From contig NZ_JAIMBW010000001.1 of the NCBI RefSeq assembly GCF_019195455.1, forward strand, positions 2,232,001 to 2,296,000: a DNA stretch of 64,000 nt, in the 5' to 3' direction. Within the stretch, counting starts at the first letter, position 1. Each line of letters begins with the position of its first letter. A model generated the notes under the pieces. The model saw nothing but the letters and a program-made list of their open reading frames with translations, searched no databases and was not told the DNA's origin. This document shows, one piece after another, positions 49,197-63,725 of the stretch. Position numbers and translations under genes: made by a program. This DNA comes from Gymnodinialimonas phycosphaerae. GTDB taxonomy: Bacteria; Pseudomonadota; Alphaproteobacteria; Rhodobacterales; Rhodobacteraceae.

Positions 49197-50405
49197 TCAG
49201 CCCCGTGCCAAACGCTGCGCGGCATCTGCAAGGACCTTGAGGCCGTCCACAAGATCGGCCTCGGCGGTGTCTTCCTCGAAGGCATGGGAAATGCCGTTGA
49301 TCGAGGGCACGAACAGCATGCCCACCGGCATCAGTTCCGCCACGTTGGAGGCATCATGCAACGCGCCCGAGGGCATCGACCGCCAGCGCCCCGGCGTGAC
49401 TGCTTCCGCCGCCTGGCAAAGGGCAGTCTGCATCTGGCCGTCCATCGGCACTGGAAGAAGCATCTGGCGCAATCGCCGGGAGGTGATGGCGCAGCCGGTG
49501 CCTTGGCGCACTTCGTCAAGGACTTCGTTGATTACCTTCTCCATCCGCTCCAATCGGTCGGCGTCCTCATCACGCCATTGCAGCGTGAAGACGGCGCGCC
49601 CAGGCACGATGGAAGGCGCGTTGGGATGCAGGTGCAGCTGGCCAATAGTCCAGACGCTTTGCGGCGTGACAACGTTGGCAAAAGCGCGCTCCAGCCCCGC
49701 TACGATCCGCGTGACCGTTGTCAGTGCATCGCGCCGCATCGCCATCGGCGTCGTGCCAGCGTGGTTTTGCTGGCCTTGCACGGTGATTTCCAGTTGGCGC
49801 GATCCGACGATACCGGTGACGACGCCAATCGCCTCTTCCGCAAGATCGAGGGCCGGGCCTTGTTCGATGTGCATCTCAAGGAAGCCGGTGAACTGCTTGG
49901 GGTCGATGAAATCGCCCGCCCTGCCTCCAAGGCATGCGCGCGCCTCGGCCAAGGTTGTTCCGTCCGCCGCAGTCAGGGTATCGGCCTCGGCCAGATCCAG
50001 TTTGCCGGACCAGACCGAGCTTCCGGTCAGCGCGCCAAAGCACCCCTCTTCATCCTGAAAGCTGACCACGGAAATCGGTGAACAACCGGCCTCGGCGCTG
50101 GCGCGCGCGACCTCCAGCGCGGCGATCACGCCCAAGGCACCGTCCAGCCAGCCACCTTCCGGCTGGGTGTCGGAATGCGATCCCAAAAGCAGCGACGGCC
50201 CTGGCGCAAGCCCGAAGAGGTTGCCGACAGGGTCAAAATGCGGCGTCAGCCCTGCGTCCGACATCCGCTTGGCCAACCAGTCCCGCGCGGCGATATCCGG
50301 TTCGGCGAAGGCGCGGCGACGGACGCCGACGCCATCCTTGCCGAACTGGCGCAGGGCATGCAGGTCGGCCAGAAAACGAGCGGGATCTACGGTAAAACGT
50401 TCCAT
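49197..50405 (-). CDS. Zn-dependent M20-type amidohydrolase (N-carbamoylase/allantoate amidohydrolase)
   Basis: 402 residues from ATG 50405 (the frame is open 14 codons further without similarity). Metal and substrate motifs of the AllC/HyuC group: '[21 protein letters not shown]', '[18 protein letters not shown]', '[14 protein letters not shown]', '[18 protein letters not shown]' and '[20 protein letters not shown]'. Cleaves an N-carbamoyl or ureido group from an amino acid, allantoate or similar. Stands alone, with pseudogenes upstream, so the substrate is unknown. Confidence 0.9.
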
Positions 50406-50485
50406 GGTCGGATGGTAGCGGCACGCAGGCCAACCTCCAACCCCCATAGGCGACTACGGTGCGACGTCAGGGGCTGCTGCTGCGC

Positions 50486-51165
50486 CTAATCGATGTAGGC
50501 ATCGGCCCTCTGCCCTGCGCGTTCATGGTGAATTGGCAAGGTGCGCCCATAAAGCTGCATCGTCCGCTCTGGCGCGCCGACCATGTTTGGCTCTTCAACA
50601 TAGGAGTAGATCGCGACGTAGCGCGCCCGTTCGCCCAGAAGCGGCGCCACCCGGAGCAGGGAATATCGCCCCCGGAAGATTTGCAGATCTCCGGGTTCGA
50701 GGTTGAGGATTTTCACCCGATCTGACGTACCGTCCAGGGCGCGGGCGACCTCGGTAAAATTCTCGCCGCCTTTTTGTATGTGCGGCACGTATTCAAACGC
50801 CCCCCCGCCTCGGCATTCTGAATGGCAATTGTCACGGCGACGTTGTTGGTATCGAAATGCCAGGGAAAGCCATTGCCCTCTTCAGCTACATTCACGATCA
50901 CGTCTGCCAGCGGGTCGGCGTATCGATATTTTTTTCAGGCAGTTCTGAATGAAGGCATCAAAGCCGTCGCTGTCATGGATGGTGCGCAGCGGGCCGTCTT
51001 TCGCGAAATTATCGGCGGCCACGAACGCGTTGGATCGGTCGAAGGTGTGCCCCGGGGACCGAAGCGCTGACCCTCGGCCTCACCGATACGGGAGCGCGGC
51101 AGGGCCGCGACATCGCCGTAAATGGCAACCCGGCGTTCGATTCCCGCAAAGATGCCCGTGCCCAG
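50486..51165 (-). pseudogene. Decayed 2OG-Fe(II) oxygenase
   Basis: Read in frame pieces this is a 2-oxoglutarate/iron oxygenase of the HalD/ArpA kind. An iron site 'GFPWHFDTNNVAVTIAIQ' (HxD) and 'ILNLEPGDLQIFRGRYSLLRVAP' are visible, but the distal His normally found in 'YSLHRV' is Leu here. Frame changes occur near 51058, at an A7 run (50930-50936) and at a C7 run (50800-50806). The C-terminal piece runs to the stop at 50486. The N-terminal limit is uncertain. Several independent lesions plus a lost iron ligand argue for a dead gene rather than a sequencing slip. Confidence 0.75.
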
Positions 51166-51171
51166 AATGGG

Positions 51172-52293
51172 GTGTTTCGCGGGCTCTATAACGTCAAGCG
51201 CCTGCAACTGGGCTTTTTGCGTGCCCGTGCTGTCGTGCAAAGCTACTGCAATGCGGTCGATACCGCCAACAGCAACGTCGATGACCCGAACCCACGGCAG
51301 GCATTCCGGGACAAGACCGAGGCGAAATCCGCGGTGGCCGTCCAATCCCCGGACGGCGCGGGTTCTTCCGTCCCTGTCACTATCCCCGTCACCGTGGACA
51401 TCGACGACCCGGTGCAGGCTGCCGCCCCAGCGCACTCGACAGAGCGCATGGTCAAGCCAACGCACGACCCCGGCCATGCCGCACGCCCCGGCTATGACCC
51501 GGATCTCCTTGGCCTACCCGTGCCCATGCGCAGGGTCACGCCCCCCTCCCAGACCCCTCTGCTCTCGACTGCGGGTCCACCACGCGCGACCATGTCCACT
51601 TCTCGCTGGCCATGAACAAACACCGGCGTCTGGCGCAGATCCCCGCTGCCAATGTCGATGCCAATCCCGCTCGCGTCCGGTCGGCGCCGGGGCGTGACTA
51701 CACGCGCCGGGGCCTCAACCGGTTCACCTCCGACATCGACCGCGAGGGGTGGTTCACCGCCCCCCGCATTCTCGCGCAGCATCAACTGCCCAACCGTTTC
51801 TTCACCCGCGACCGCACGGCGTTCGACAAGGGCCACTTCGTCCTCTGCAATGCCGCGGGCTGGGGCGACACCTGTGCCGAGGTGCAGGCCGCCAACGGCG
51901 ACACGTTCCATGTCACCAATTGCTCGCCCCAAGGCGACGGGTTTCAACCGCTCCAATCTGGGCGGGCTGTAGGGCAAGTTGGAGAACCTCGTTTTGACCG
52001 AAGCCACAGCCGAGCGTCTGCGTGTTTTCGCAGGTCCGGTCCTTGCGTATGATGATCCCGTATTCGTCGGCGTCGACAATATCGGCACCGTCAATGTGCG
52101 CATCCTCCGCGCCTATTGGAAGATCATCGCGGCCCAGAAGGCCGGCACGGTGCAAAACTTCGGATTATTACTGGAACAAGACCTTGCGGATGTGGATTCG
52201 GAGTTACGGTTGACGACGGAATGCACTCGACGCCTGACGTCCCTGTCCGAAATGCAGGATCGCATCGACGTGGTCACATGCGACCCGTACTGA
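51172..52293 (+). pseudogene. Decayed DNA/RNA non-specific endonuclease
   Basis: Fragments of a NUC1-type nuclease in two frames: an N-terminal part from 51172, then 'YTRRGLNRFTSDIDREGWF' and the active-site-like 'RTAFDKGHFV' (D-x-GH), then 'DTFHVTNCSPQ' in one frame. Next comes 'GFNRSNLGGL', a TAG at 51970-51972 in place of an expected Trp, and 'KLENLVLTEATAERLRVFA', 'WKIIAAQKAGTVQ' in another frame. At least two frameshifts and one nonsense change. Lies head to head with the oxygenase pseudogene. Confidence 0.8.
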
Positions 52294-52317
52294 TCAGGGC
52301 CGAGCAAACCTGAACGT

Positions 52318-53442
52318 TCAAACGGGCGCAATCTGCCCCGCGATCATCGGGGCGGCCACGCCCGTCGTGCCCGGATAGCTTACCGGCAAGTCCCGTAGCC
52401 GCCGCATCGCGAGGTAGGCAAAACACTGCGCCTCGGTCGCGTCGCCTTCCCAACCGACGTTTTCGGCACGGTCCGCCTGCACGCGGGCATAGCGTTCGAT
52501 CATCGCGAGAAGCGTCGGGTTTCGCCGCCCACCGCCGCACACGATCAGGCGGTCGGGCCGTTGAGGCAACAGGTCCAGACCCCGCCCCACGGCGCTTGCG
52601 GTAAATGCTGTCAGGGTCGCCGCCCCGTCGGCGTCGGACAGGTCCGCCACCCAATCGTGACCGAAGTCAAACCGATCCAGCGACTTGGGATAGGGCCGCG
52701 TCAGGTAGGGATGCGCCAGCGCGCGGGCCAACAGCCCTTCGTCGACCTGCCCTGTTGCCGCCAAGCGCCCGTCCCGGTCCATCTCTCCCAAGCCGCGCGC
52801 ACCCATGAAATCGTTGATCGGAGCATTGGCGGGGCCGGTGTCGAACGCCGCCAACCCGCCCAGTCCATCGCGCGCCGTGACATTCGCCACTCCACCGAGG
52901 TTCAGGATCGCTGTCGCCGCGCCCCCCTCCAACCGATCCAGGAGCGCACCGTGATAGACCGGGCACATTGGGGCGCCCTGCCCGCCCGCCGCCATGTCAC
53001 CGCTGCGGAAATCGAACACGACGGGCACGCCAAGGCGGCCCGCCATCGCGTGCCCATCGCCCAATTGTCGCGTCTGGCCAAGACGTTGCTCCGTGGGGGC
53101 CCGGTGCAGCACCGTCTGCCCGTGGAACCCCACCGCCACGATGTCTGCCATCGCAAGTCCGGCCTCTGCCACCAGACGCGCCACGGCGTCCGATTGAGCT
53201 CGGGTAATCCGTGCCTCCGCTTGGGCGAAAACCGCGGGCTCCGGGCCATCGAAGGCCCATACCTTCGCCTGTTCCAGACAACTCGCCAACATCGCATTTG
53301 TTTGCGCATCATAGGGGTAAAGCGCATGGGCCCCGAACCCGTCGATCCTGTCCCCATCGGTGCGTAGCAGCGCCACGTCGATGTTGCCGTCCAACACCGT
53401 GCCCGTCATCAGCCCCACGGCCCACTGCATCTTACCCGACAT
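52318..53442 (-). CDS. anmK: Anhydro-N-acetylmuramic acid kinase AnmK
   Basis: 374 residues. Opens and phosphorylates 1,6-anhydro-MurNAc to MurNAc-6-phosphate with ATP. Family strings: 'AVGLMTGTVLDGNIDVALL' (ATP/phosphate loop), 'ILNLGGVANVTA', 'AFDTGPANAPINDFMG' and 'LIVCGGGRRNPTLL'. ATG at 53442 has GAGG 6 bp upstream; another ATG four codons later is possible. Its start overlaps the end of the serine-hydrolase gene by 11 bp. Last gene of the murQ-ABC operon; its product is the substrate of MurQ. Confidence 0.95.
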   Translation of the reverse strand: MSGKMQWAVGLMTGTVLDGNIDVALLRTDGDRIDGFGAHALYPYDAQTNAMLASCLEQAKVWAFDGPEPAVFAQAEARITRAQSDAVARLVAEAGLAMADIVAVGFHGQTVLHRAPTEQRLGQTRQLGDGHAMAGRLGVPVVFDFRSGDMAAGGQGAPMCPVYHGALLDRLEGGAATAILNLGGVANVTARDGLGGLAAFDTGPANAPINDFMGARGLGEMDRDGRLAATGQVDEGLLARALAHPYLTRPYPKSLDRFDFGHDWVADLSDADGAATLTAFTASAVGRGLDLLPQRPDRLIVCGGGRRNPTLLAMIERYARVQADRAENVGWEGDATEAQCFAYLAMRRLRDLPVSYPGTTGVAAPMIAGQIAPV

Positions 53443-54403
53443 AAAGCGCCTCTCCCACGGTTTGGCGCAGGGTGCCGATGCCGGTCTCGATGTGACGCGA
53501 GGGATGCACCCGGTTTGTCAGAAGCGTCCACGCGCGCCCGGCCTCCGCGTCGATCCAAAGCCCTGTCCCGGTGAACCCCGTGTGCCCGATGGTCGCCACG
53601 CCACAACGCTGCCCGCCCGACCATCCGGCGTGGCGGATCTCCCAGCCATGGGTGCGCGACCCCTCGACCCGCGTGCCTGCCAATCCAAGTCCCTGCGCCA
53701 GCATCGCCTCGCCAACGTCCAGCAGCGCGTCCGCGGTCCCAAACAGCCCCGCATGGCCCGCGCCCTGAAGCGCAAAACAATTCTCGTCATGGACTTCGCC
53801 GCGCATCACACGGCCCCGCCAGGTGCAGGCCTCCGTCGCCGCGCAGGCCGCCGGATCGGGGGTGAAGGTGAACCCTGCGCCGGGGTCCATCTGGCGAATA
53901 CCGCACCCCTCCAACCGCTCCAACGCAATGCCGAGGAGGATGAAGTTGATGTCGGAATAGACGGGTGTTGGCACGCGCCGCCATTCCCGCTGCAACACGA
54001 AGGCCCGCAGAGTGGCAGGGTCCTGGCCATAAGTGTAGAGGGGGGCCACCGCCGGGAAGGGCGTGCGATGGGCCAGGCAATCGCGGAAAGTCACGGCCCG
54101 CTCCCAGCAGTCCGCGTGGTACTGTCGGAAATCCGGGATGACCTGCGTCAAGGGCGCATCAAGGTCGATCCGCCCGGCTTTTGCATGGGCCAAGATCCGC
54201 CGCGCCGTGAAGACCGGCTTGGTCAGGGACGCGAGGTCGAAGATCGCCTCACGTGTCATCCCGGCCGAGTCTGGTACCACCTGCGCGGCACCGGCGCAGG
54301 CCACTTGCCGCCCGCCTGCGTCCACGACGCCCAAGACCGCGCCCGGGATGCGGCCCTTGGTGACGGCGTCGCCCACCAACGCCCATGCCGCGTCAAACCC
54401 CAT
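53432..54403 (-). CDS. Class-C beta-lactamase-family serine hydrolase (YfeW-like position)
   Basis: 323 residues from ATG 54403, in a 4-bp overlap with the ABC ATPase stop. Penicillin-binding fold: SxxK in 'FDLASLTKPVFTARR', the second motif region 'PVYSDINFILLGIALERLEG' and the third 'TIGHTGFTGTGLWIDAEAG'. No signal peptide is seen, so it may act in the cytoplasm. In E. coli the class-C-like YfeW gene follows murQP, so this gene holds the equivalent place. A role in trimming peptide from imported muropeptides is inferred. Confidence 0.85.
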   Translation of the reverse strand: MGFDAAWALVGDAVTKGRIPGAVLGVVDAGGRQVACAGAAQVVPDSAGMTREAIFDLASLTKPVFTARRILAHAKAGRIDLDAPLTQVIPDFRQYHADCWERAVTFRDCLAHRTPFPAVAPLYTYGQDPATLRAFVLQREWRRVPTPVYSDINFILLGIALERLEGCGIRQMDPGAGFTFTPDPAACAATEACTWRGRVMRGEVHDENCFALQGAGHAGLFGTADALLDVGEAMLAQGLGLAGTRVEGSRTHGWEIRHAGWSGGQRCGVATIGHTGFTGTGLWIDAEAGRAWTLLTNRVHPSRHIETGIGTLRQTVGEALYVG

Positions 54404-56091
54404 CACCCGGCCTCCGCCACGAAACGGTGCCCCGGCCCATGCTCTTGCCAAAGCACTGCTGCGGGCTCCCAACCCGCCGGGCGCAGGGTCGAGGGGACTT
54501 CATCGGTATCCAGGGCGAAATCCACTTCGCGCTTTTCCAATGACGGCACGGCGGCCATCAACTTGCGGGTGTAGGGATGTTGCGGATCCGACAGCACATC
54601 GGTCGAGGGGCCCATCTCGACGATCTGGCCCGCATGGATCACCGCGATCCGGTGCGCGACCCGCTCCACCACGCCCATGTCGTGGGAGACGAACAGATAC
54701 GCAAGGCCAAACTCCTTCTGCAAATCCATCAGCAAATCCAGCACCTTGGCCTGCACCGACACGTCGAGCGCCGACACCGCCTCGTCCAGTACAAGGATCT
54801 TCGGCTCTGGCATCAGGGCGCGCGCGATGCACACTCGCTGCCGCTGCCCGCCCGAGAATTCGTGGGGGTAGCGATCCAGCGCATCAAGGGGCAGGTCGAC
54901 CTTACGCAGCAACGTCTCCATCCGCTCCACACAGGCCGCGTCCACGCGCCCCCCCGCAGCGATCACCGGCTCGGCGAGCGCGGTTCGGATCTTCATACGC
55001 CCGTTGAGCGACGCATTCGGGTTCTGGAACACCATCTGCACGGCCCGGTCCCCTCCACACGCAATGCGCCCCTTCGACGGCTTCACCAGTCCCAGCACCG
55101 CGCGGGCCATGGTCGATTTACCCGATCCGCTTTCGCCGACGACTCCCAGGGTCTCTCCGGGGGCCAGGTCGAACGAGACGTTCGACACGGCATGGACGAC
55201 CCCCTTCGACTTGCGCAGGAAGCCACCGCCGACCGGGAACCGGACGGCCAAGTCGTCGACCTGCAGCGCAGGCTTTCCGGCGGCGTCGTTGGCCTTGGGC
55301 GCGGCAGCCCCATGGCGGAAAAGGGGAACGGCGCTGAGCAAATGGCGCGTGTATTCATGCCGGGGCCAGTCGATGATATCGCCTGTAGACCCGCTCTCGA
55401 CCACCATGCCGTTTTGCATGACGACCACCCTGTCGGCGATACCGGCCACGACGCCGATATCGTGGGTGATGAAGATCAGGCCGGTCCCGGTTTCACGCTG
55501 CAACTCGGCCAGCAGGGCAAGGATTTGCGCCTGAATGGTCACGTCCAGCGCCGTCGTGGGTTCATCCGCGATCAACAGCCGAGGCTCACCAGCCAGCGCC
55601 ATGGCGATCATGATCCGCTGCAACATCCCACCCGACATCTGGTGCGGCGCCTGATCCAACCGCCGCTCGGCGTCGGGGATGCGCACCCGGTCCAAGGCAC
55701 GGATGGCGGCCTGCCGCACCGCGCGGCCTGACATCCCGTGGCGCTTGGCGAAGATCTCTCCTATCTGGGTGCCGACCTTCAGGACGGGGTTGAGAGAGGT
55801 CATCGGCTCTTGGAAAATCATCCCGATCTCGCGCCCACGCAGGCGCTGCAAGGCAACCTCTTCCGCTTGGACCAGGTCGGTTGTTCCATCCAGAAGTATG
55901 GACCCGCCCCGGATCCGCCCGCCGCTGTAGTCGATCAGGCGGTTGATCGACATCGCGGTCACCGACTTGCCCGATCCGCTTTCTCCGACGATTGCGAGGG
56001 TCTCTCCGGCGGCGACATCGAAACTGACGTTGTGCACAACATCCGTATCGCCAAACCCCACCCGCAGGTCCTTGACCGACAGCAGCGTCAT
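54403..56091 (-). CDS. ABC transporter, fused DppD-DppF-type ATPase
   Basis: 562 residues comprising two complete ABC ATPase domains in one chain (GsiA-like). Walker A 'GESGSGKS' occurs in both halves (about residue 40 and again after the mid linker), with signatures '[16 protein letters not shown]' and '[15 protein letters not shown]', Walker B '[13 protein letters not shown]' and '[14 protein letters not shown]'. Oligopeptide C-terminal extensions are present in both. ATG 56091 is used (ATGA overlap with the DppC-type gene). Drives the DppB/DppC permease encoded upstream. Confidence 0.95.
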
Positions 56092-56927
56092 GCCCGGCCC
56101 CTTTGCGCCTTGGGGTCCGTGATGTCGCGCAAGGCGTCCCCCAGCAGGTTGAAGCCAAGGACCGCCAGCATGATTACCGCCGCCGGAAAGATCAGCAGCC
56201 AAGGCGCCATTTCCATCAGGTTGCGGCTGTCCGACAGCATCAGGCCAAGCGACGGATGCGGCGGCTGCGTGCCGAGGCTGAGGAAGCTAAGCGCCGCCTC
56301 CGTCAGCAGCGCCCAAGCCAGCGCCAGGGTAAATTGCACGGTCAGGGGTGCCACGAGATTGCCAAGCAGGTGCCGCGACAGGATGTAGGTGCGAGAGCTG
56401 CCGAACGTCCGTGCCGCATCCACGAAACTGCGCGTCTTCAGCGACAGCGCCGGACCGCGCGCCACCCGGGTGAAGATTGGCGTGTAGACGATGGCGATCG
56501 CCAGGACGCTCGTCCATACGCCCGGTTGCAGGATCGCCACAATCAACAGCGCCAGCAAGATCGCCGGGAAGGCCAGAAGGACGTCCATGGAGCGCATGGC
56601 GACCCCGTCCCACAGTCCCCCGAACCACGCCGCCGTCAGGCCCAGCACGGTGCCCAGCGTTGCCGCCAGTGACACCGATAACAGCGCCACCTTGAACGAC
56701 CGGCCGATGCCCTCCATCAGGCGGCTGAGCATGTCGCGCCCGAACAGGTCCGTGCCCAGAAGATAGGTGCCGCTGGGGGCTTGCAGCCGCGCAAGGCGGT
56801 CTTGGGCGAGCGGGTCGTGGGGCGTCAGGCCCAGCAGGCCCAAAAGGGCGGCAAGGCCAAGCACGCCGATGATCACAAGGCTGATCCGCCCCGCCGAATG
56901 ATCCCAAAGCGCGCGCAACAGACTCAT
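56088..56927 (-). CDS. ABC transporter permease, DppC type
   Basis: 279 residues, six helices, with the 'GTDLFGRDMLSRLMEGIGRS' start of the inner-membrane domain and the EAA loop 'SFVDAARTFGSSRTYILSRH'. The typical C-terminal 'NLLGDALRDITDP' closes it. Overlaps both neighbours by 4 bp (ATGA). Heterodimer partner of the DppB-type protein for import of dipeptide-sized substrates. Confidence 0.93.
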   Translation of the reverse strand: MSLLRALWDHSAGRISLVIIGVLGLAALLGLLGLTPHDPLAQDRLARLQAPSGTYLLGTDLFGRDMLSRLMEGIGRSFKVALLSVSLAATLGTVLGLTAAWFGGLWDGVAMRSMDVLLAFPAILLALLIVAILQPGVWTSVLAIAIVYTPIFTRVARGPALSLKTRSFVDAARTFGSSRTYILSRHLLGNLVAPLTVQFTLALAWALLTEAALSFLSLGTQPPHPSLGLMLSDSRNLMEMAPWLLIFPAAVIMLAVLGFNLLGDALRDITDPKAQRGRA

Positions 56928-57886
56928 GATTGGTTCCCGTAGCGGATGCGCGGATCAAGGGCGGCGTAGGCCAGATCCACAAGCAGATTGACCAACATGA
57001 AGTTGAAGGCGATGAACAGGATCACCCCTTGAACGAGGGCGTAGTCGCGCTCCAGAATGGCATCCAGCACAACGCGGCCCAAGCCGGGAAGCGCGAAGAT
57101 TTGCTCGACAATGACAGCGCCGCCCAGCAGGTAGCCGAATTCGACCCCGCTGAGCGTCAGGACCGGGATCAGCGCGTTGGGCAACGCGTGGCGCCAGATT
57201 ACGTAGCGTTCCGAGAAGCCCTGGGACCGCGCCGTGCGCACGTAATCCTCGGACAGGATGTCCAACATCGCCGCCCGCGTGATCCGCGTCACAGCGGCGG
57301 CAAAGGCCGTGCCAAGGGCGAAGGCGGGCAGGATCATCTGCGCCAGGTTACCCAGGGGATCTTCGGTGAAGTGCACGTAGCTGCCCATGGTGGGCAACAC
57401 TCCAAAACCCACCGACAGGATGAAGATCGCCAGAAGCGCCACGACGAAATTGGGCATCGACTGGCCGACCATGGCAAGGATGCGCACGATCAGATCAGAC
57501 GCGCGGTTGGCATGGACCGCCGCGAAGACGCCCGCTGGCAGGCCGATGAGCAGGGCGATCACCATCGACATCAGCGCCAGTTGCAGGGTCAGGGGGAAGC
57601 GTTCAAGGATCAGGTCGAGGACCGGCTGGCCATAGGTGACGGAAATTCCCAGGTCTCCCCGGAACAGCCCCGCCAGCCAGCGCCCGTATTGCACGGCCCA
57701 GTTCTGATCGAGCCCGAAATACGCTGTTAGCGCCTCGCGCTGAGCGGGCGTCAACATGCCTGCTTCGGTGCCCAGCATCGCCGTGATGGCGTCGCCGGGC
57801 ACCAGCCTTATTGCGACAAAGACGAACACCGACACGCCCAGCATGACCAGCGGAAACACCGCGAGGCGTCTGAGAAGATAGGTCAT
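56924..57886 (-). CDS. ABC transporter permease, DppB type
   Basis: 320 residues: the 'MTYLLRRLAVFPLVMLGVSV' N-terminal helix characteristic of DppB, the periplasmic segment 'REALTAYFGLDQNWAVQYGR', EAA loop 'DYVRTARSQGFSERYVIWRH', and 'ALPGLGRVVLDAILERDYAL'. 57 bp downstream of the binding-protein gene and 4-bp overlap with the DppC-type gene. Confidence 0.93.
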   Translation of the reverse strand: MTYLLRRLAVFPLVMLGVSVFVFVAIRLVPGDAITAMLGTEAGMLTPAQREALTAYFGLDQNWAVQYGRWLAGLFRGDLGISVTYGQPVLDLILERFPLTLQLALMSMVIALLIGLPAGVFAAVHANRASDLIVRILAMVGQSMPNFVVALLAIFILSVGFGVLPTMGSYVHFTEDPLGNLAQMILPAFALGTAFAAAVTRITRAAMLDILSEDYVRTARSQGFSERYVIWRHALPNALIPVLTLSGVEFGYLLGGAVIVEQIFALPGLGRVVLDAILERDYALVQGVILFIAFNFMLVNLLVDLAYAALDPRIRYGNQS

Positions 57887-57943
57887 GCCCCCGTCCTCAT
57901 GTAGCGCAGCGGTAGGACATGAAAGAAGGTCCCGCCCTGTGCC

Positions 57944-59443
57944 CTATTCAGCCAAAGTCACATCGACCAACCCGAAGAGCGATCCGGTAGGCGACGCCTC
58001 GAACCCTGAAACGCCTTCGACCTGCGCCGTGTAGGTGTTGCCGGTGAACAGCCACACCCAAGGCGACATATCGGCCAGATGGCCCTCGAACTCGGCGAAG
58101 ATCTCGCTGCGGCGCGCCGGATCGGTTTCCGTGCGGCCTTCGTTCATCAAGCTGTCGAGCGTGTCGTCGATGTAGTTGGCCACCCCTTGCAGGTTGCCGT
58201 CCCGCGTCCAGTAACGATTGTACATCGTGTAGGGATCCACGCGGCCCCCGTTCAATGCCACGGCCATGTCGAAATCAGCCGCCAGCCAACGGTCGATATA
58301 GACGCTGAGTTCCTGCATCTCGATCTCAAGCTCGATGCCAACCTCGGCCAGTTGCGACTGGATCACCTGCGCCACGGAAGAGGCGGTTGGCGGCTCTCCG
58401 GTGGCGGCCATGACCGTAGCCGTGAAGCCATCAGCATAGCCCGCCTCGGCCAGCAATTCGCGGGCGCGATCCTGATCCTGTTCGTAACAGAACAGGCCAC
58501 TGGGGTCCGTGCGATAGGCCGGCGACGTCAGCGGCCCCGTCACTTCGCCCTCACCCAGAAGGGCGGCATCCAGAATGTCCTGCCGGTCGATTGCACAGGA
58601 AATCGCCTGGCGCAGCGGCAGGGAGTCCATCGGCTCGCGGGCGGCGTTCAACTGCAACACGTAGTAGCTGAGTGTCGGCGCCGTGTTCAGGCTGAGGCCC
58701 GGCGATTGCGGGATCAGCGTGGCGACCAGCGGGTCGTTGATCAGGGCGAAATCCGCCTGCCCGGCGCGCAGGGCGGCCAGAAGTGCCGTCTCGTCGGGCA
58801 ATACGCTGATGGCGATGTTGTCATAGGCGACGTCGCCGCCGTGCCAGCCGTCGAAAGCCACCAGATTGGCACTGGCGTTGGGGGTTCGGCTTTCCAGTGT
58901 AAAGGGACCGGAGCCCACGACTTCCGTGGCGATTGTCCCGGCCTCAATGGCAGAAGCGGGCACCACGGCGGCGTTGACGGAGGCCATGCCGTTCAGGATC
59001 GGCGCATCCGCGCCGTCCAACACGAAGGTGACCGTGTGGTCATCTGGGGTCTGGATCTCGATGATCGAGGTGTAGTTGGCGCGCGCAATCGCGCCGGTTT
59101 CCTCGTCCAGAATGCGGGTGAACGACGCGGCCACATCGGCGGATGTCACCGGCGTGCCGTCGTGGAACATCGCGTCGGGATCCAACTGGAAGGTCAGCTG
59201 CAAGCCGTCGTCCGAGAACGCCCAGCTTTCCGCCACGGCGGGCTGCAACTCCAGGTTCGCGTCAAGCCGCACCAGCGGCTCGTACATCAACTCCAGCAGG
59301 CGGATCGTCGCGAAACCGGGCTGCGTGTGCGGGTCGAGGCCCGTCGCGTCCTGCGACCAGGCCAGGTCCAGCGTTTGTGCCGACAAGGGCGTCACCATCG
59401 CGGTGGTCAAAAGCGCAAGCGCCGTGGTCTTAAAGGTAGTCAT
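57944..59443 (-). CDS. ABC transporter substrate-binding protein, family 5 (DppA/MppA-like)
   Basis: 499 residues from ATG 59443 (GGGAG 9 bp upstream); an ATG three codons earlier touches that site and is less likely. Signal peptide 'TTALALLTTAMVTPLSA' then QTLDLAWSQD. Family 5 features: 'YEPLVRLDANLELQPAVAES', 'FHDGTPVTSADVAASFTRIL' and 'LPLRQAISCAIDRQDI'. In this operon the ligand is expected to be a murein fragment such as anhydro-MurNAc(-peptide), as MppA binds murein tripeptide in E. coli. Gap to murQ is 30 bp. Confidence 0.92.
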   Translation of the reverse strand: MTTFKTTALALLTTAMVTPLSAQTLDLAWSQDATGLDPHTQPGFATIRLLELMYEPLVRLDANLELQPAVAESWAFSDDGLQLTFQLDPDAMFHDGTPVTSADVAASFTRILDEETGAIARANYTSIIEIQTPDDHTVTFVLDGADAPILNGMASVNAAVVPASAIEAGTIATEVVGSGPFTLESRTPNASANLVAFDGWHGGDVAYDNIAISVLPDETALLAALRAGQADFALINDPLVATLIPQSPGLSLNTAPTLSYYVLQLNAAREPMDSLPLRQAISCAIDRQDILDAALLGEGEVTGPLTSPAYRTDPSGLFCYEQDQDRARELLAEAGYADGFTATVMAATGEPPTASSVAQVIQSQLAEVGIELEIEMQELSVYIDRWLAADFDMAVALNGGRVDPYTMYNRYWTRDGNLQGVANYIDDTLDSLMNEGRTETDPARRSEIFAEFEGHLADMSPWVWLFTGNTYTAQVEGVSGFEASPTGSLFGLVDVTLAE

Positions 59444-59473
59444 TCCAGTCATCTCCCAAGTTCCGTGGTTGTT

Positions 59474-60406
59474 TCAAACGGCGGGGTTTTGTCCCGCTCT
59501 TTCAATGGCTTTACGAAGGAAGCCTCCTTCGGCCTCCAGGGTTGCCCGCGCCGTTTCGGCATCGAGGCCCGTCATCTGCATCAGAAGCGCCAGCTTCACG
59601 CTGCCTCCGCCTTGCTCCAGCGCCGCGCGGGCTTCGGCCGGGCTGCATCCGGTCGCCTCGACCAGCATCGACAGCGCCCGTTCAGCCAGCTTCTGGTTGG
59701 AGATCGTCACATCGACCATCCGGTTTCCCCAGGTCTTGCCCCGCCGGATCATGCTTGCCGTGCTCAGCATATTCAGCACCATTTTCTGGGCCGTGCCGGA
59801 TTTTAACCGGGTGGAACCCGTCACAACCTCGGGGCCCACAACCGGAGAGATCGCCGTATCGGCAAGGGCCGACAGGGGCGATCCGGGGTTGCACGTCAGC
59901 GCCGCCGTGGCAGCCCCTACCCCCCTGGCGTGGCGCAGCGCGCCCATGACGTAGGGTGTTCGGCCACTGACGGCGATGCCCACGACGACGTCCGCAGCGC
60001 TCACGGCAATCGCTTCAAGATCGGCCGCGCCGCGCGTCTCGTCATCCTCGGCCGCCTCAACGGAATGGCGCAACGCACGATCGCCGCCTGCAATCAGGCC
60101 CACGACCATCTCGGGCGGGACGGAAAATGTCGGCGGGCATTCCGAGGCGTCCAACACACCCAACCGCCCGCTGGTGCCGGCGCCGATGTAGATCAACCGC
60201 CCGCCTTCGTTCAGCGCATCGACGATCCGGTCGACGACCTCGGCAATTGCAGGCAGCTCTGTGGCCACGGCATCGGCCACGCCGCGATCTTCCTCGTTCA
60301 TGCAGGCGATGATCTGGGCGCTGGACATCAGGTCGATCTGCTCCGTGCGCGGGTTCCGCGCCTCGGACACAAGCGTCTCAAGATCCGATGTGATGGTGGC
60401 AGACAC
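59474..60406 (-). CDS. murQ: N-acetylmuramic acid 6-phosphate etherase MurQ
   Basis: 310 residues of the SIS-fold etherase. Splits MurNAc-6-phosphate into GlcNAc-6-phosphate and D-lactate. Seen: 'RLIYIGAGTSGRLGVLDASE' with 'CPPTFSVPPEMV', 'IAGGDRALRHSVEAAEDDE' (catalytic Glu) and 'GNRMVDVTISNQKLAERALS'. I choose GTG at 60406, with GGGGAG 8 bp upstream; an ATG nine codons earlier is in frame. First gene of the seven-gene murQ operon and divergent to the RpiR-type regulator. Confidence 0.95.
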   Translation of the reverse strand: MSATITSDLETLVSEARNPRTEQIDLMSSAQIIACMNEEDRGVADAVATELPAIAEVVDRIVDALNEGGRLIYIGAGTSGRLGVLDASECPPTFSVPPEMVVGLIAGGDRALRHSVEAAEDDETRGAADLEAIAVSAADVVVGIAVSGRTPYVMGALRHARGVGAATAALTCNPGSPLSALADTAISPVVGPEVVTGSTRLKSGTAQKMVLNMLSTASMIRRGKTWGNRMVDVTISNQKLAERALSMLVEATGCSPAEARAALEQGGGSVKLALLMQMTGLDAETARATLEAEGGFLRKAIERAGQNPAV

Positions 60407-60437
60407 GGCAGCGACTCCCCTTCTTGCCCGCAAGGTT

Positions 60438-60450
60438 GAATTTTTTATTC
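60438..60450. promoter_or_regulatory. AT-rich inverted repeat between murQ and the RpiR gene
   Basis: GAAT-TTTTT-ATTC in the 101-bp divergent gap, within an AT-rich island (60436-60486) that includes a second AATTTTTTT run and GGTAGATTATT. A MurR-type dimer site controlling both directions would sit here. The motif is simple, so confidence is limited. Confidence 0.4.
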
Positions 60451-60507
60451 GTCGCTGTCAATTTTTTTGTGGTAGATTATTCCAAATCGACAGCCCGAGG
60501 TTCCGCC

Positions 60508-61353
60508 GTGTCCATTCTTACCCTCATGCAAGCCCAACGAGGGACGCTATCGGCAGGCGAACGGCAGATCGCCGACACCATTCTGGACGATCCCGACACC
60601 ATGGCGCGCCTCTCTTCCAGCGAGTTGGCCCGCGCCGCCGGGCGCAGCCAATCGTCGGTGGTGAAGTTTTGCCAGAAGCTGGGGTTTTCCGGCTATCAGG
60701 ACCTGCGGTTGGAAATCACCCGCGCCGCCGCCGCCCGCACCGCGACGGTGGAGGCGGTGCATAGCACCATCGACCTTGGCGACGATGCCTCCGTCACCGC
60801 GCAGAAACTTTTGGCCAGCAAGGTCAACGCCTTGCAAGAGACGCTTGGCATCAATCCGCCCGCCCGTCTGGACGCTGCTCGAGATGCGCTGAATACGGCG
60901 GCGCGCGTGCAGCTTTCCGGCGTCGGTGCCTCGTCGCTGGTGGCCCGCGACTTCGCCTACAAGCTGCAAAAGCTTGGCATTCCGGTTCTGTTCGACGCCG
61001 ACAGCCACATCCAGATGGCCCATGCGGCCTCCCTCACGCCCAAGGACGTGGTCGTGTCACTCTCGCAATCCGGCACCAGTCTGGAGACCCTGCGTATTGC
61101 CGAGGCCGCCGCGCGGCGCGACGCCACCCTTGTCACCGTCACGGGCTTACACCCCAATCCTCTTGCGGATCTGGCCGCCTTCGCCCTGCGGACCGTGACC
61201 GATGAAGATCAGGTGCGCTCCTCCGCCATCACGTCGCGTGATGCGCAATTGATCCTGTTGGATCTTCTGTTCCTGCGCCTCGTGCAGATCCGCGATGACG
61301 CGGTCGAGCGTATCAGCGGCGTGGCCAAGGCTGTCGCCCCCCTGAAGCTGTGA
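60508..61353 (+). CDS. RpiR/MurR-family regulator with SIS domain
   Basis: 281 residues from GTG 60508 (GAGG 8 bp upstream); the frame is open further back across the operator. HTH 'LSAGERQIADTILDDPDTMARLSSSELARAAGRSQSSVVKFCQKLGF' region, then a SIS domain 'RVQLSGVGASSLVARDFAYK', 'DVVVSLSQSGTSLETLRIAE' for a phosphosugar. MurR in E. coli is the same family, divergent to murQ, and responds to MurNAc-6-phosphate. Overlaps the GNAT gene start (GTGA). Confidence 0.9.
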   Translation: MSILTLMQAQRGTLSAGERQIADTILDDPDTMARLSSSELARAAGRSQSSVVKFCQKLGFSGYQDLRLEITRAAAARTATVEAVHSTIDLGDDASVTAQKLLASKVNALQETLGINPPARLDAARDALNTAARVQLSGVGASSLVARDFAYKLQKLGIPVLFDADSHIQMAHAASLTPKDVVVSLSQSGTSLETLRIAEAAARRDATLVTVTGLHPNPLADLAAFALRTVTDEDQVRSSAITSRDAQLILLDLLFLRLVQIRDDAVERISGVAKAVAPLKL

Positions 61354-61817
61354 CGCAGGTCCGTCCCTACACGCCTGCCGACCGCGAGGCAGTGGCGCGC
61401 CTCAACGTGACTTATTATACAACAACTCACGGGTTCAACGGGACCTTCGCAGATGCCGTTGCGGGCGCGTTGGACAGCTTGGGGGATGGCGATCTGGGCT
61501 GGGTCGTGACGGATCAGGGCCGCATCGCGGGCTCTCTGTTCCTGTCGGTCGAGACGCCCGACGTCGGCCGCCTCCGCCTGTTCCTATTGCGCCCCGATCT
61601 GCAAGGGCGCGGCCTTGGGCGCGTGCTTCTGGGTCACGCCCTTGCTTCCACTTCACCCCTTGGCATCACGCGTCTCAACGTCTCCACCTTCACGATCCAC
61701 AGGGGCGCCTGCGCCCTCTACACCGCCTCGGGTTTTTCCGAGACCGCGCGCCTGCCCTGCCATGCATTCGGCCGCACGCTGGAGCAGGTGGATTTCAGCC
61801 GCACCATCAGCGCCTGA
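61350..61817 (+). CDS. GNAT-family N-acetyltransferase
   Basis: 155 residues with acetyl-CoA-binding motif A 'LFLLRPDLQGRGLGRVLLGHAL' and the following 'YTASGFSETARLPCHAFGRTL'. GTG start overlaps the RpiR-gene stop, so the two are co-translated. A substrate among amino sugars or murein peptides is suggested by the neighbourhood but not shown. Confidence 0.85.
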   Translation: MTQVRPYTPADREAVARLNVTYYTTTHGFNGTFADAVAGALDSLGDGDLGWVVTDQGRIAGSLFLSVETPDVGRLRLFLLRPDLQGRGLGRVLLGHALASTSPLGITRLNVSTFTIHRGACALYTASGFSETARLPCHAFGRTLEQVDFSRTISA

Positions 61818-62405: not shown

Positions 62406-62432
62406 CCCGCGCTTCATCGCGCGGGGCCTTTT
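62406..62432. terminator. Rho-independent terminator between convergent genes
   Basis: CCCGCGC-TTCATC-GCGCGGG stem-loop (62406-62425) followed by GCCTTTT. Placed between the DUF2541-like gene and the convergent ychF, immediately before the ychF stop, so it can serve the rightward gene and perhaps both. Confidence 0.8.
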
Positions 62433-63528
62433 ACCCCCCGTGAAGGAAGTGCAGGACGTCGCCATCCTTGACCACGTAGCCCTTGCCTTCCGCCCGCATC
62501 TTGCCCGCCTCCTTGGCGGGGTTTTCACCGCCCAGCGTCACGTAATCATCATAGGCAATCGTCTCGGCCCGGATGAACTTGGCCTCAAAATCGCCGTGGA
62601 TCACGCCGGCGGCGGCGGGGGCCAGCGTGCCCTCCTTGATCGTCCAGGCGCGGGCCTCTTTGGGGCCGACGGTGAAGTAGGTTTGCAGGTTCAAAAGCTC
62701 GTATCCGGCGCGGATCAGTCGGTCGAGGCCGGGCTCTTCCAGCCCCAATTCCTCCAGGAACATCTCGGCGTCATCGGCATCCAGTTGGCTGATGTCTTCC
62801 TCGATCTTGGCGGAGATCACCACGTGGGCGTTGCCCTGCGCGGCCGCCATTTCGGCGACCCGCGCGGACTGGGAATTGCCTGTGCCCGCGTTCTCTTCTT
62901 CAACATTGCAGACGTAGAGGATCGGCTTGGTGGTCAGCAATTGCAACATCTTCCAGGCTTTCGCGTCTTCATCGGCCACGTCCACGGTGCGTGCGGGCTT
63001 GCCGTCTTCCAGCGCCGCTTTCGCGGCGTTCAACAGGCGTTCCTGCTGCACCGCTTCCTTGTCACCACCGCGCACCTTTCGAACGAGGTTCACCATGCGC
63101 TTCTCGATGCTTTCCAGATCGGCAAGCATCAGCTCCGTCTCGATGGTTTCCGCGTCCGCGATGGGATCCACGCGGCCATCGACGTGGACGACGTCTCCAT
63201 CCTCGAAACAGCGCAACACATGGGCAATCGCGTCGGTCTCGCGGATGTTGGCGAGGAACTGGTTGCCGAGGCCTTCACCCTTGGAGGCCCCCTTCACGAG
63301 GCCCGCGATATCCACGAAGGTCATCCGCGTCGGGATGATCGACTTGGACGCCGCAATCGCGGCCAGTTTGTCGAGGCGGTCGTCCGGCACGGCGACGTCG
63401 CCCACATTCGGCTCGATCGTGCAGAACGGAAAGTTCGCGGCCTGCGCGGCGGCGGTGCGCGTCAGCGCGTTGAACAGGGTCGATTTGCCGACATTCGGCA
63501 GGCCCACGATGCCCATTTTGAAACCCAT
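62431..63528 (-). CDS. ychF: Redox-regulated ATPase YchF
   Basis: 365 residues of the universal Obg-like P-loop ATPase YchF/OLA1. Seen: 'MGIVGLPNVGKSTLFNALT' (G1), 'IPTRMTFVDIAGLVKGASKGEGLGNQFL' region (G3), 'ILYVCNVEEEN' (NVxE in place of NKxD, giving ATP preference), and a C-terminal TGS domain 'LQTYFTVGPKEARAWTIKEG', 'YVVKDGDVLHFLHGG'. ATG 63528 gives the conserved MGFKMGIVG start; an ATG three codons earlier also exists. Confidence 0.96.
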   Translation of the reverse strand: MGFKMGIVGLPNVGKSTLFNALTRTAAAQAANFPFCTIEPNVGDVAVPDDRLDKLAAIAASKSIIPTRMTFVDIAGLVKGASKGEGLGNQFLANIRETDAIAHVLRCFEDGDVVHVDGRVDPIADAETIETELMLADLESIEKRMVNLVRKVRGGDKEAVQQERLLNAAKAALEDGKPARTVDVADEDAKAWKMLQLLTTKPILYVCNVEEENAGTGNSQSARVAEMAAAQGNAHVVISAKIEEDISQLDADDAEMFLEELGLEEPGLDRLIRAGYELLNLQTYFTVGPKEARAWTIKEGTLAPAAAGVIHGDFEAKFIRAETIAYDDYVTLGGENPAKEAGKMRAEGKGYVVKDGDVLHFLHGG

Positions 63529-63725
63529 GTGACGCACTCCGCTGAAGCGTTGAAATCAGCGCGCATGTAGGTCGCGCGCGGGGGGAAGGTCAAGGCACCG
63601 CCGCCTTTGTCGCACGGCGAGGGCGGCCCGCTGGGGCGCGAACGGCGGGCGCACCAAGGGCATCATCGCGCCACCCGTGGTCGCAGGCCGATTGACTTGC
63701 CCCCCCACGCGCGTAGACGGACGCC

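Follow-up and report, generated by a model that had tools for sequence, protein, structure and literature searches.

The gene cluster considered here lies in a 64,000-nucleotide stretch of Gymnodinialimonas phycosphaerae DNA (assembly GCF_019195455.1, contig NZ_JAIMBW010000001.1, positions 2,232,001 to 2,296,000), called the window below; the source genome comprises 4.32 Mb in two contigs. Pfam and NCBIfam profiles and open reading frame (ORF) coordinates place seven leftward genes at 52318-60406, with a divergent RpiR/MurR-type gene alongside. From right to left, the seven encode MurQ, a substrate-binding protein, a DppB-type and a DppC-type permease, a fused ATP-binding cassette (ABC) ATPase, a PF00144 hydrolase, and AnmK. 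Every gene named in a sequence-only reading of this DNA was recovered by the profiles on the strand given for it. Adjacent genes overlap by 1-11 bp, except for a 57-bp gap between the binding protein and DppB genes and a 30-bp gap between murQ and the binding protein gene. The features are as follows (MurNAc, N-acetylmuramic acid).

52318..53442, minus strand: anmK paralogue (anhydro-MurNAc kinase family, GLMTGTV clade); PF03702 247 bits (cut-off 24), NF007141 468 bits (cut-off 352)
53432..54403, minus strand: serine hydrolase of class-C beta-lactamase fold, probably located in the cytoplasm, and a candidate for trimming peptides or for an (anhydro)MurNAc-L-Ala amidase; PF00144 102 bits, with motifs and N-terminus
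54403..56091, minus strand: fused two-domain ABC ATPase, GsiA/YejF-like; two ABC_tran stretches plus oligo_HPY
56088..56927, minus strand: DppC/GsiD/NikC-type permease (Pfam/NCBIfam)
56924..57886, minus strand: DppB/GsiC/NikB-type permease (Pfam/NCBIfam)
57944..59443, minus strand: periplasmic family-5 (cluster C) substrate-binding protein; PF00496 278 bits
59474..60406, minus strand: murQ, MurNAc-6-phosphate etherase, GTG start; TIGR00274 and PRK12570 over cut-off
60438..60450, no strand: predicted operator GAATTTTTTATTC, a palindrome type common to 64 of 67 regulator-operon regions, window included
60456..60461, minus strand: -35-like box TTGACA in the murQ promoter, with the operator 5 bp downstream
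60508..61353, plus strand: divergent RpiR/MurR-type regulator, HTH_6 plus SIS; relatives in 66 of 80 loci
61350..61817, plus strand: GNAT acetyltransferase overlapping rpiR; PF00583 36 bits, relatives in 0 of 80 loci

The identity of MurQ was clear from its scores (398.9 bits on TIGR00274, cut-off 302; 458.9 bits on PRK12570, cut-off 255), and its top PDB matches carry the name MurNAc-6-phosphate (MurNAc-6-P) etherase. Comparison with relatives put its start at the GTG at 60406, and the copy in the operon is the only one in the source genome. A scan of ten ORFs in the 49-62 kb part of the window found no EIIBC component MurP of the phosphotransferase system (PTS).

Conservation of the gene set and its palindrome

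The 120 best binding-protein homologues, the window's own aside, share 64-93% identity with the window protein; those with names come mainly from Rhodobacterales and Rhizobiales, the closest being from Gymnodinialimonas (93%). Scanning named genomes with an alignment of 17 binding proteins gave 262 candidate stretches, 208 of them encoding relatives, and the best 80 were taken as loci, most of them from Rhizobiales genera such as Rhizobium, Mesorhizobium, Martelella and Nitratireductor. Among these 80 loci, tblastn matched DppB in 80, DppC and the ATPase in 79 each, MurQ and the hydrolase in 76 each, AnmK in 75 and the regulator in 66. The complete seven-gene set, on one strand and in constant order, was present in 72 loci, whereas three control neighbours in the window (the GNAT gene, an M20 hydrolase gene at 49197-50447 and a GTPase gene at 62431-63537) each matched in none. 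The sequence-only reading had named separation of the operon partners in relatives as one thing that would refute it; they stay together. In five of the exceptions (L043, L054, L058, L068, L089) the locus is cut off at the point where the missing genes are expected. The other three (L048, L069, L086), all Devosia, keep the importer, the hydrolase and anmK and lack murQ and the regulator, a combination that links the importer with the anhydro-sugar step. Of 81 sequences, the 65 with a full set of eight genes gave pairwise gene distances that correlate at 0.88-0.96; the 16 incomplete sequences were dropped.

The regulator, an HTH_6 plus SIS protein divergent from murQ, scored 167 bits on the NCBIfam MurR model NF012026 (cut-off 408), and is therefore labelled RpiR/MurR-type only. 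A GAAT-N5-ATTC palindrome with the consensus GGAATAAAAWATTCCA occurs in 64 of the 67 intergenic regions between regulator and operon (66 loci and the window); in mononucleotide shuffles it occurred in a mean of 0.20 of the 67. Its density there is 4.19 per kb (70 sites in 16.7 kb), versus 0.058 per kb (92 sites) in the rest of the loci. The window copy, 5 bp past the TTGACA box, occupies a position that fits repression by the divergent regulator. Most of the outside sites (66 of 92) fall in the 8.5-9.5-kb bin, where murQ begins in most loci, and a site lies 250 bp or less from murQ in 35 of the 49 loci that have murA upstream of murQ; the two halves of the Rhizobiales cluster thus seem to have an operator in common. 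Searching the source genome for the strict operator, with one mismatch allowed at most, gave no copy; this excludes only strong sites, since the pattern also misses the window's own weaker one.

Cell-wall sugar genes accompany the operon in many relatives. Matches to murA were found in 53 of the 80 loci (one, L092, weak, partial and on the opposite strand), and matches to a NagK-type kinase in 57 (four weak, at 36-37%: L031, L034-L036). In 49 loci murA stands upstream of murQ; in L052 and L053 (Roseibium) and in L057 (Pelagibius) it is on the far side of anmK. The PGGC motif of MurA, whose cysteine presumably has a role in the enzyme, is retained in 52 of 53. In L063 the MurA scored 530.6 bits (cut-off 392.7) and the kinase 280 bits on the NagK_SO3507 model, below the cut-off of 370. 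Here (L063:5599-7751), as in many Rhizobiales, a full-strength murA and a NagK-type gene form part of the murQ-anmK cluster, apparently controlled by the same operator. The presence of murA beside murQ in rhizobia is unexpected, as it looks like a synthesis enzyme placed in a seemingly catabolic operon.

A gene with a lytic-transglycosylase domain (PF01464, the domain having been tested in L063 only, at L063:17405-18355) has matches in 16 of the 80 loci and stands directly after anmK in 15 of those 16. Lytic transglycosylases produce anhydro-MurNAc ends. A nagA gene is nearby in all six of L031-L036 (6 of 80 loci in all) and nagB in five of the 80 (L031, L034, L035, L036, L039). Additions of murA and the NagK-type gene occur in many Rhizobiales, and those of nagA or nagB in some Rhodobacterales; together they point to peptidoglycan amino sugars, independently of the reasoning in the sequence-only reading. 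The source genome has one nagA, a single murA and a NagZ-like gene, all outside the operon; the only NagZ match in it reached 189 bits, below the cut-off of 207. The MurU profile gave six weak matches in the source genome, none over cut-off, and the same model was over cut-off in 0 of 14 control genomes.

The GNAT gene had been described as co-translated with the regulator. Its 4-bp overlap with rpiR stands; its membership in a conserved system does not, as no match was found in the 80 loci by tblastn at E up to 1e-8 and then up to 0.01, and it was rejected as a component. The GNAT protein weakly resembles aminoglycoside acetyltransferase models (25 bits, cut-offs 290 and more), and might act as an amino-sugar acetylase. 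On the other side of the operon, anmK is followed by about 1.5 kb (about 50800-52300) without a convincing gene, and then by the M20 gene, which is of carbamoylase type.

Kinase, hydrolase and binding protein

The source genome has two AnmK genes, 47% identical, one in the operon and one housekeeping. A tree was built from the window copy, the AnmK of 72 of the 75 loci that have one (any reading no longer than 330 residues was left out), and a housekeeping set of 19 copies taken from the source genome and 18 others picked from 149 sampled genomes of the order, in all 149 of which AnmK is present. The 73 operon copies formed one clade free of housekeeping copies (support 0.85). They all carry GLMTGTV (73 of 73) where the housekeeping copies carry GxMSGTS (19 of 19), as does the solved structure 3cqy; the operon enzyme also has extra residues relative to the housekeeping one, as seen by comparing the window protein (52318-53442) with L129. 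An FDTGPAN stretch, containing what we take to be the catalytic Asp, is common to both groups. We class the operon kinase as AnmK-family, a label that leaves aside the importance of GxMSGTS for activity and the choice of substrate. Divergence of this kind would also suit an operon devoted to another anhydro- or amino-sugar acid, with AnmK and MurQ re-tooled, and levoglucosan kinase is a relative of AnmK. We nevertheless regard such re-tooling as very unlikely, given a MurQ far over its cut-offs (459 versus 255 bits) and the pointers to peptidoglycan amino sugars from murA in the Rhizobiales copies and nagA/nagB in the Rhodobacterales copies.

In the hydrolase, SLTK, YSDIN and HTGFTG were all exact in 65 of 77 sequences; the other 12 miss one or more by this search. 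The best 12-residue stretch at the N-terminus had a median hydrophobicity of 1.22 (maximum 1.67), versus a median of 2.19 for the binding proteins, and none of the 77 has an N-terminus as hydrophobic as that of a typical binding protein. Because the hydrophobic N-terminus present in the binding protein is missing, the hydrolase looks cytoplasmic.

Among solved proteins, AgaA (6hlx) was the binding protein's best match by profile (241 bits). Like AgaA, which we take to be an opine-type binder, and the DppA-type proteins, the window protein belongs to cluster C; unlike them, it falls in a compact subfamily of its own, defined by the 120 best homologues at 64-93% identity, and lacks the Asp408 of DppA. 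Aligned with the solved DppA structure 5f1q, members of the window family show Gly at the position of the first Asp of GDNGDP. This Asp is chain residue 436 in 5f1q, which becomes Asp408 in mature numbering once 28 residues, presumably the length of the signal, are removed; we take Asp408 to be the ligand of the peptide amine. The Gly is present in 17 of 17 aligned proteins and in 116 of the 120 homologues, the other 4 not matching the search motif, so an ordinary dipeptide is an unlikely ligand.

This replacement bears on two other accounts of the importer. The first is that it takes ordinary peptides, MurQ and AnmK being mere neighbours that serve internal recycling. The permeases and the ATPase do belong to the broad di/oligopeptide class, as this account would have it; against it stand the Gly, the presence of a separate housekeeping AnmK, and the linkage of murQ or anmK in 79 of 80 loci (the single miss being a 4-kb contig), and we consider it improbable. 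The second is that the importer carries free sugar only, whether anhydro-MurNAc or MurNAc, while the hydrolase acts elsewhere, for example in D-Ala release like PBP4B. In its favour, AnmK and MurQ act on the sugar, the nearest solved binding protein, AgaA, is an opine-type binder, and Gly replaces the amine anchor for dipeptides; a PBP4B gene also stands beside murQP in E. coli, according to the accessible part of PMC5061867. On the other hand, the hydrolase is present in 76 of the 80 loci, in the 72 complete loci its gene separates the importer genes from the kinase gene, and it looks cytoplasmic, all of which suggests that the imported material needs hydrolysis. A free-sugar importer is for this reason doubtful, if still a serious contender.

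The window permease scored 118.6 bits on the YejB model (cut-off 445), and the source genome has a separate YejB over cut-off at C1:2686284. A 640-aa protein beside that YejB, taken as YejA, gave no BLASTP match to the window binding protein at 1e-3. Judged by these comparisons, the window importer is distinct from the genome's YejB-type importer. No AmpG over cut-off was found in the source genome.

A probable route for scavenging muramic acid fragments

The operon is most simply read as an inducible scavenging system for muramic-acid-containing peptidoglycan fragments, to which we give a probability of roughly 0.72. From the gene content and order we infer the following flow. In the periplasm the binding protein would capture a fragment containing (anhydro)MurNAc; a short anhydromuropeptide is most likely, and free anhydro-MurNAc may be taken as well. 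The ABC importer would carry the fragment in unphosphorylated. The cytoplasmic beta-lactamase-fold hydrolase would remove or trim the peptide, and the operon AnmK would open the anhydro ring and phosphorylate the sugar to MurNAc-6-P. MurQ would then split off D-lactate to give N-acetylglucosamine 6-phosphate (GlcNAc-6-P) for NagA, encoded by one copy elsewhere in the genome. The RpiR/MurR-type protein would repress the operon via the GAAT-N5-ATTC operator beside the -35 box, repression presumably being relieved by MurNAc-6-P. The architecture and the pathway logic proposed in the sequence-only reading are well supported by the linkage, by the cell-wall sugar genes in relatives and by the fact that AnmK plus MurQ can replace PTS phosphorylation; the interpretation as a whole, with its candidate substrates, is partly supported.

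Several points weigh against scavenging of muramic fragments. The substrate of the operon AnmK may differ from that of the housekeeping enzyme, because positions invariant within each group differ between them (TGTV for SGTS, extra residues). The best NCBIfam model for the hydrolase, PBP4B (NF002968), matched only partially, at 55.2 bits (cut-off 385), and matches to solved structures (carboxylesterases and beta-lactamase-like proteins) reached 34 bits or less; given both, its reaction is proposed from context. The structure model of the binding protein, built from 17 close homologues, is of low confidence (mean predicted local distance difference test score 61.5). Being related, the 80 loci do not count as independent cases, and the distance correlation is one without species-tree control. 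The palindrome is missing from the regulator regions of L053, L057 and L058, and the source genome already has a YejB-type importer. Finally, MurQ is over the curated cut-off in only 1 of the 149 sampled genomes of the order, namely the source genome, so the operon is sporadic in Rhodobacteraceae.

Across the class, MurQ was over cut-off in 9 of 385 genomes, these being the source genome and eight of 2.0 Mb or less. MurQ-like SIS proteins below the MurQ cut-off (163-277 bits) occur in 39 of the 149 genomes of the order. We fetched 29 such genes from other Rhodobacteraceae (L002-L030) with 1.5-kb flanks; within these, 26 adjoin a NagK-like gene, none adjoins anmK or a binding-protein match, and one (L003) adjoins a weak ATPase match. 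They were not accepted as orthologues, and they probably belong to a different amino-sugar pathway.

Reference points for the operon come from the known murQ clusters. Those of E. coli and B. subtilis combine a PTS transporter with a hydrolase gene, according to the part of PMC5061867 available. Like E. coli murQ-murP-yfeW with its divergent murR, as described there, the window has MurQ, a PBP4B-like hydrolase gene and a divergent RpiR/MurR regulator; unlike it, the window uses an ABC importer and a linked anmK in place of the PTS transporter, and its hydrolase looks cytoplasmic and falls far below the PBP4B cut-off. The B. subtilis cluster murQ-murR-murP-amiE-nagZ-ybbC likewise joins MurQ, a MurR-type regulator and a muropeptide-hydrolase-type gene in one cluster; there, in the same portion of PMC5061867, digestion is extracellular and uptake by PTS, whereas the window would rely on import and an anhydro-sugar kinase, in an operon without nagZ. 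In Agrobacterium, anhydromuropeptides enter through YejBEF-YepA, a peptide-class ABC importer; nearly every family of Rhizobiales and Rhodobacterales, orders in which AmpG is mostly absent, is reported to have YepA (PMC9790009, accessible part). The remark in the sequence-only reading that it was aware of no dipeptide-type importer dedicated to this sugar therefore needs qualifying; the window importer is nevertheless a different one. It resembles YejBEF-YepA in being of the peptide class and in occurring in the same bacterial orders, and differs in its link to MurQ, as Agrobacterium uses AnmK, MupP, AmgK and MurU in the same account. With a YejB over cut-off and no AmpG over cut-off, the source genome fits that published pattern. 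Caulobacter has no MurQ and uses the MurU route, as far as the accessible parts of PMC11980594 and PMC13046382 describe.

Searches of open-licence papers, a body that misses most subscription journals, turned up no description of the window operon; the available parts of the papers cited above and of PMC6403190, PMC10838918, PMC4051167, PMC10771577, PMC11737092 and PMC13041923 do not describe it. The general kind, muramic acid salvage, is known, and the operon is conserved; the arrangement of ABC import, a dedicated AnmK paralogue, MurQ and a common operator is the part for which no description was found. A 2008 review of MurNAc etherase operons by Jaeger and Mayer may mention ABC-linked murQ. 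B. subtilis AmiE, we assume, shares its fold with the window hydrolase.

Tentatively, the cluster may represent a MurR-type regulon of Rhizobiales and some Rhodobacterales in which cell-wall fragments enter through a dedicated ABC importer and are converted to GlcNAc-6-P with the help of a paralogous AnmK, in Rhizobiales followed by resynthesis via co-regulated MurA and NagK; this could be a second route of peptidoglycan salvage, running alongside YejBEF-YepA and the MurU pathway. The importer has probably not been tied to muramic acid uptake before, and one binding protein and one operator become directly testable. If the reading as a scavenging system is true, these bacteria of plants and of the sea would use cell-wall fragments as food too, some of them perhaps shed by neighbouring cells.

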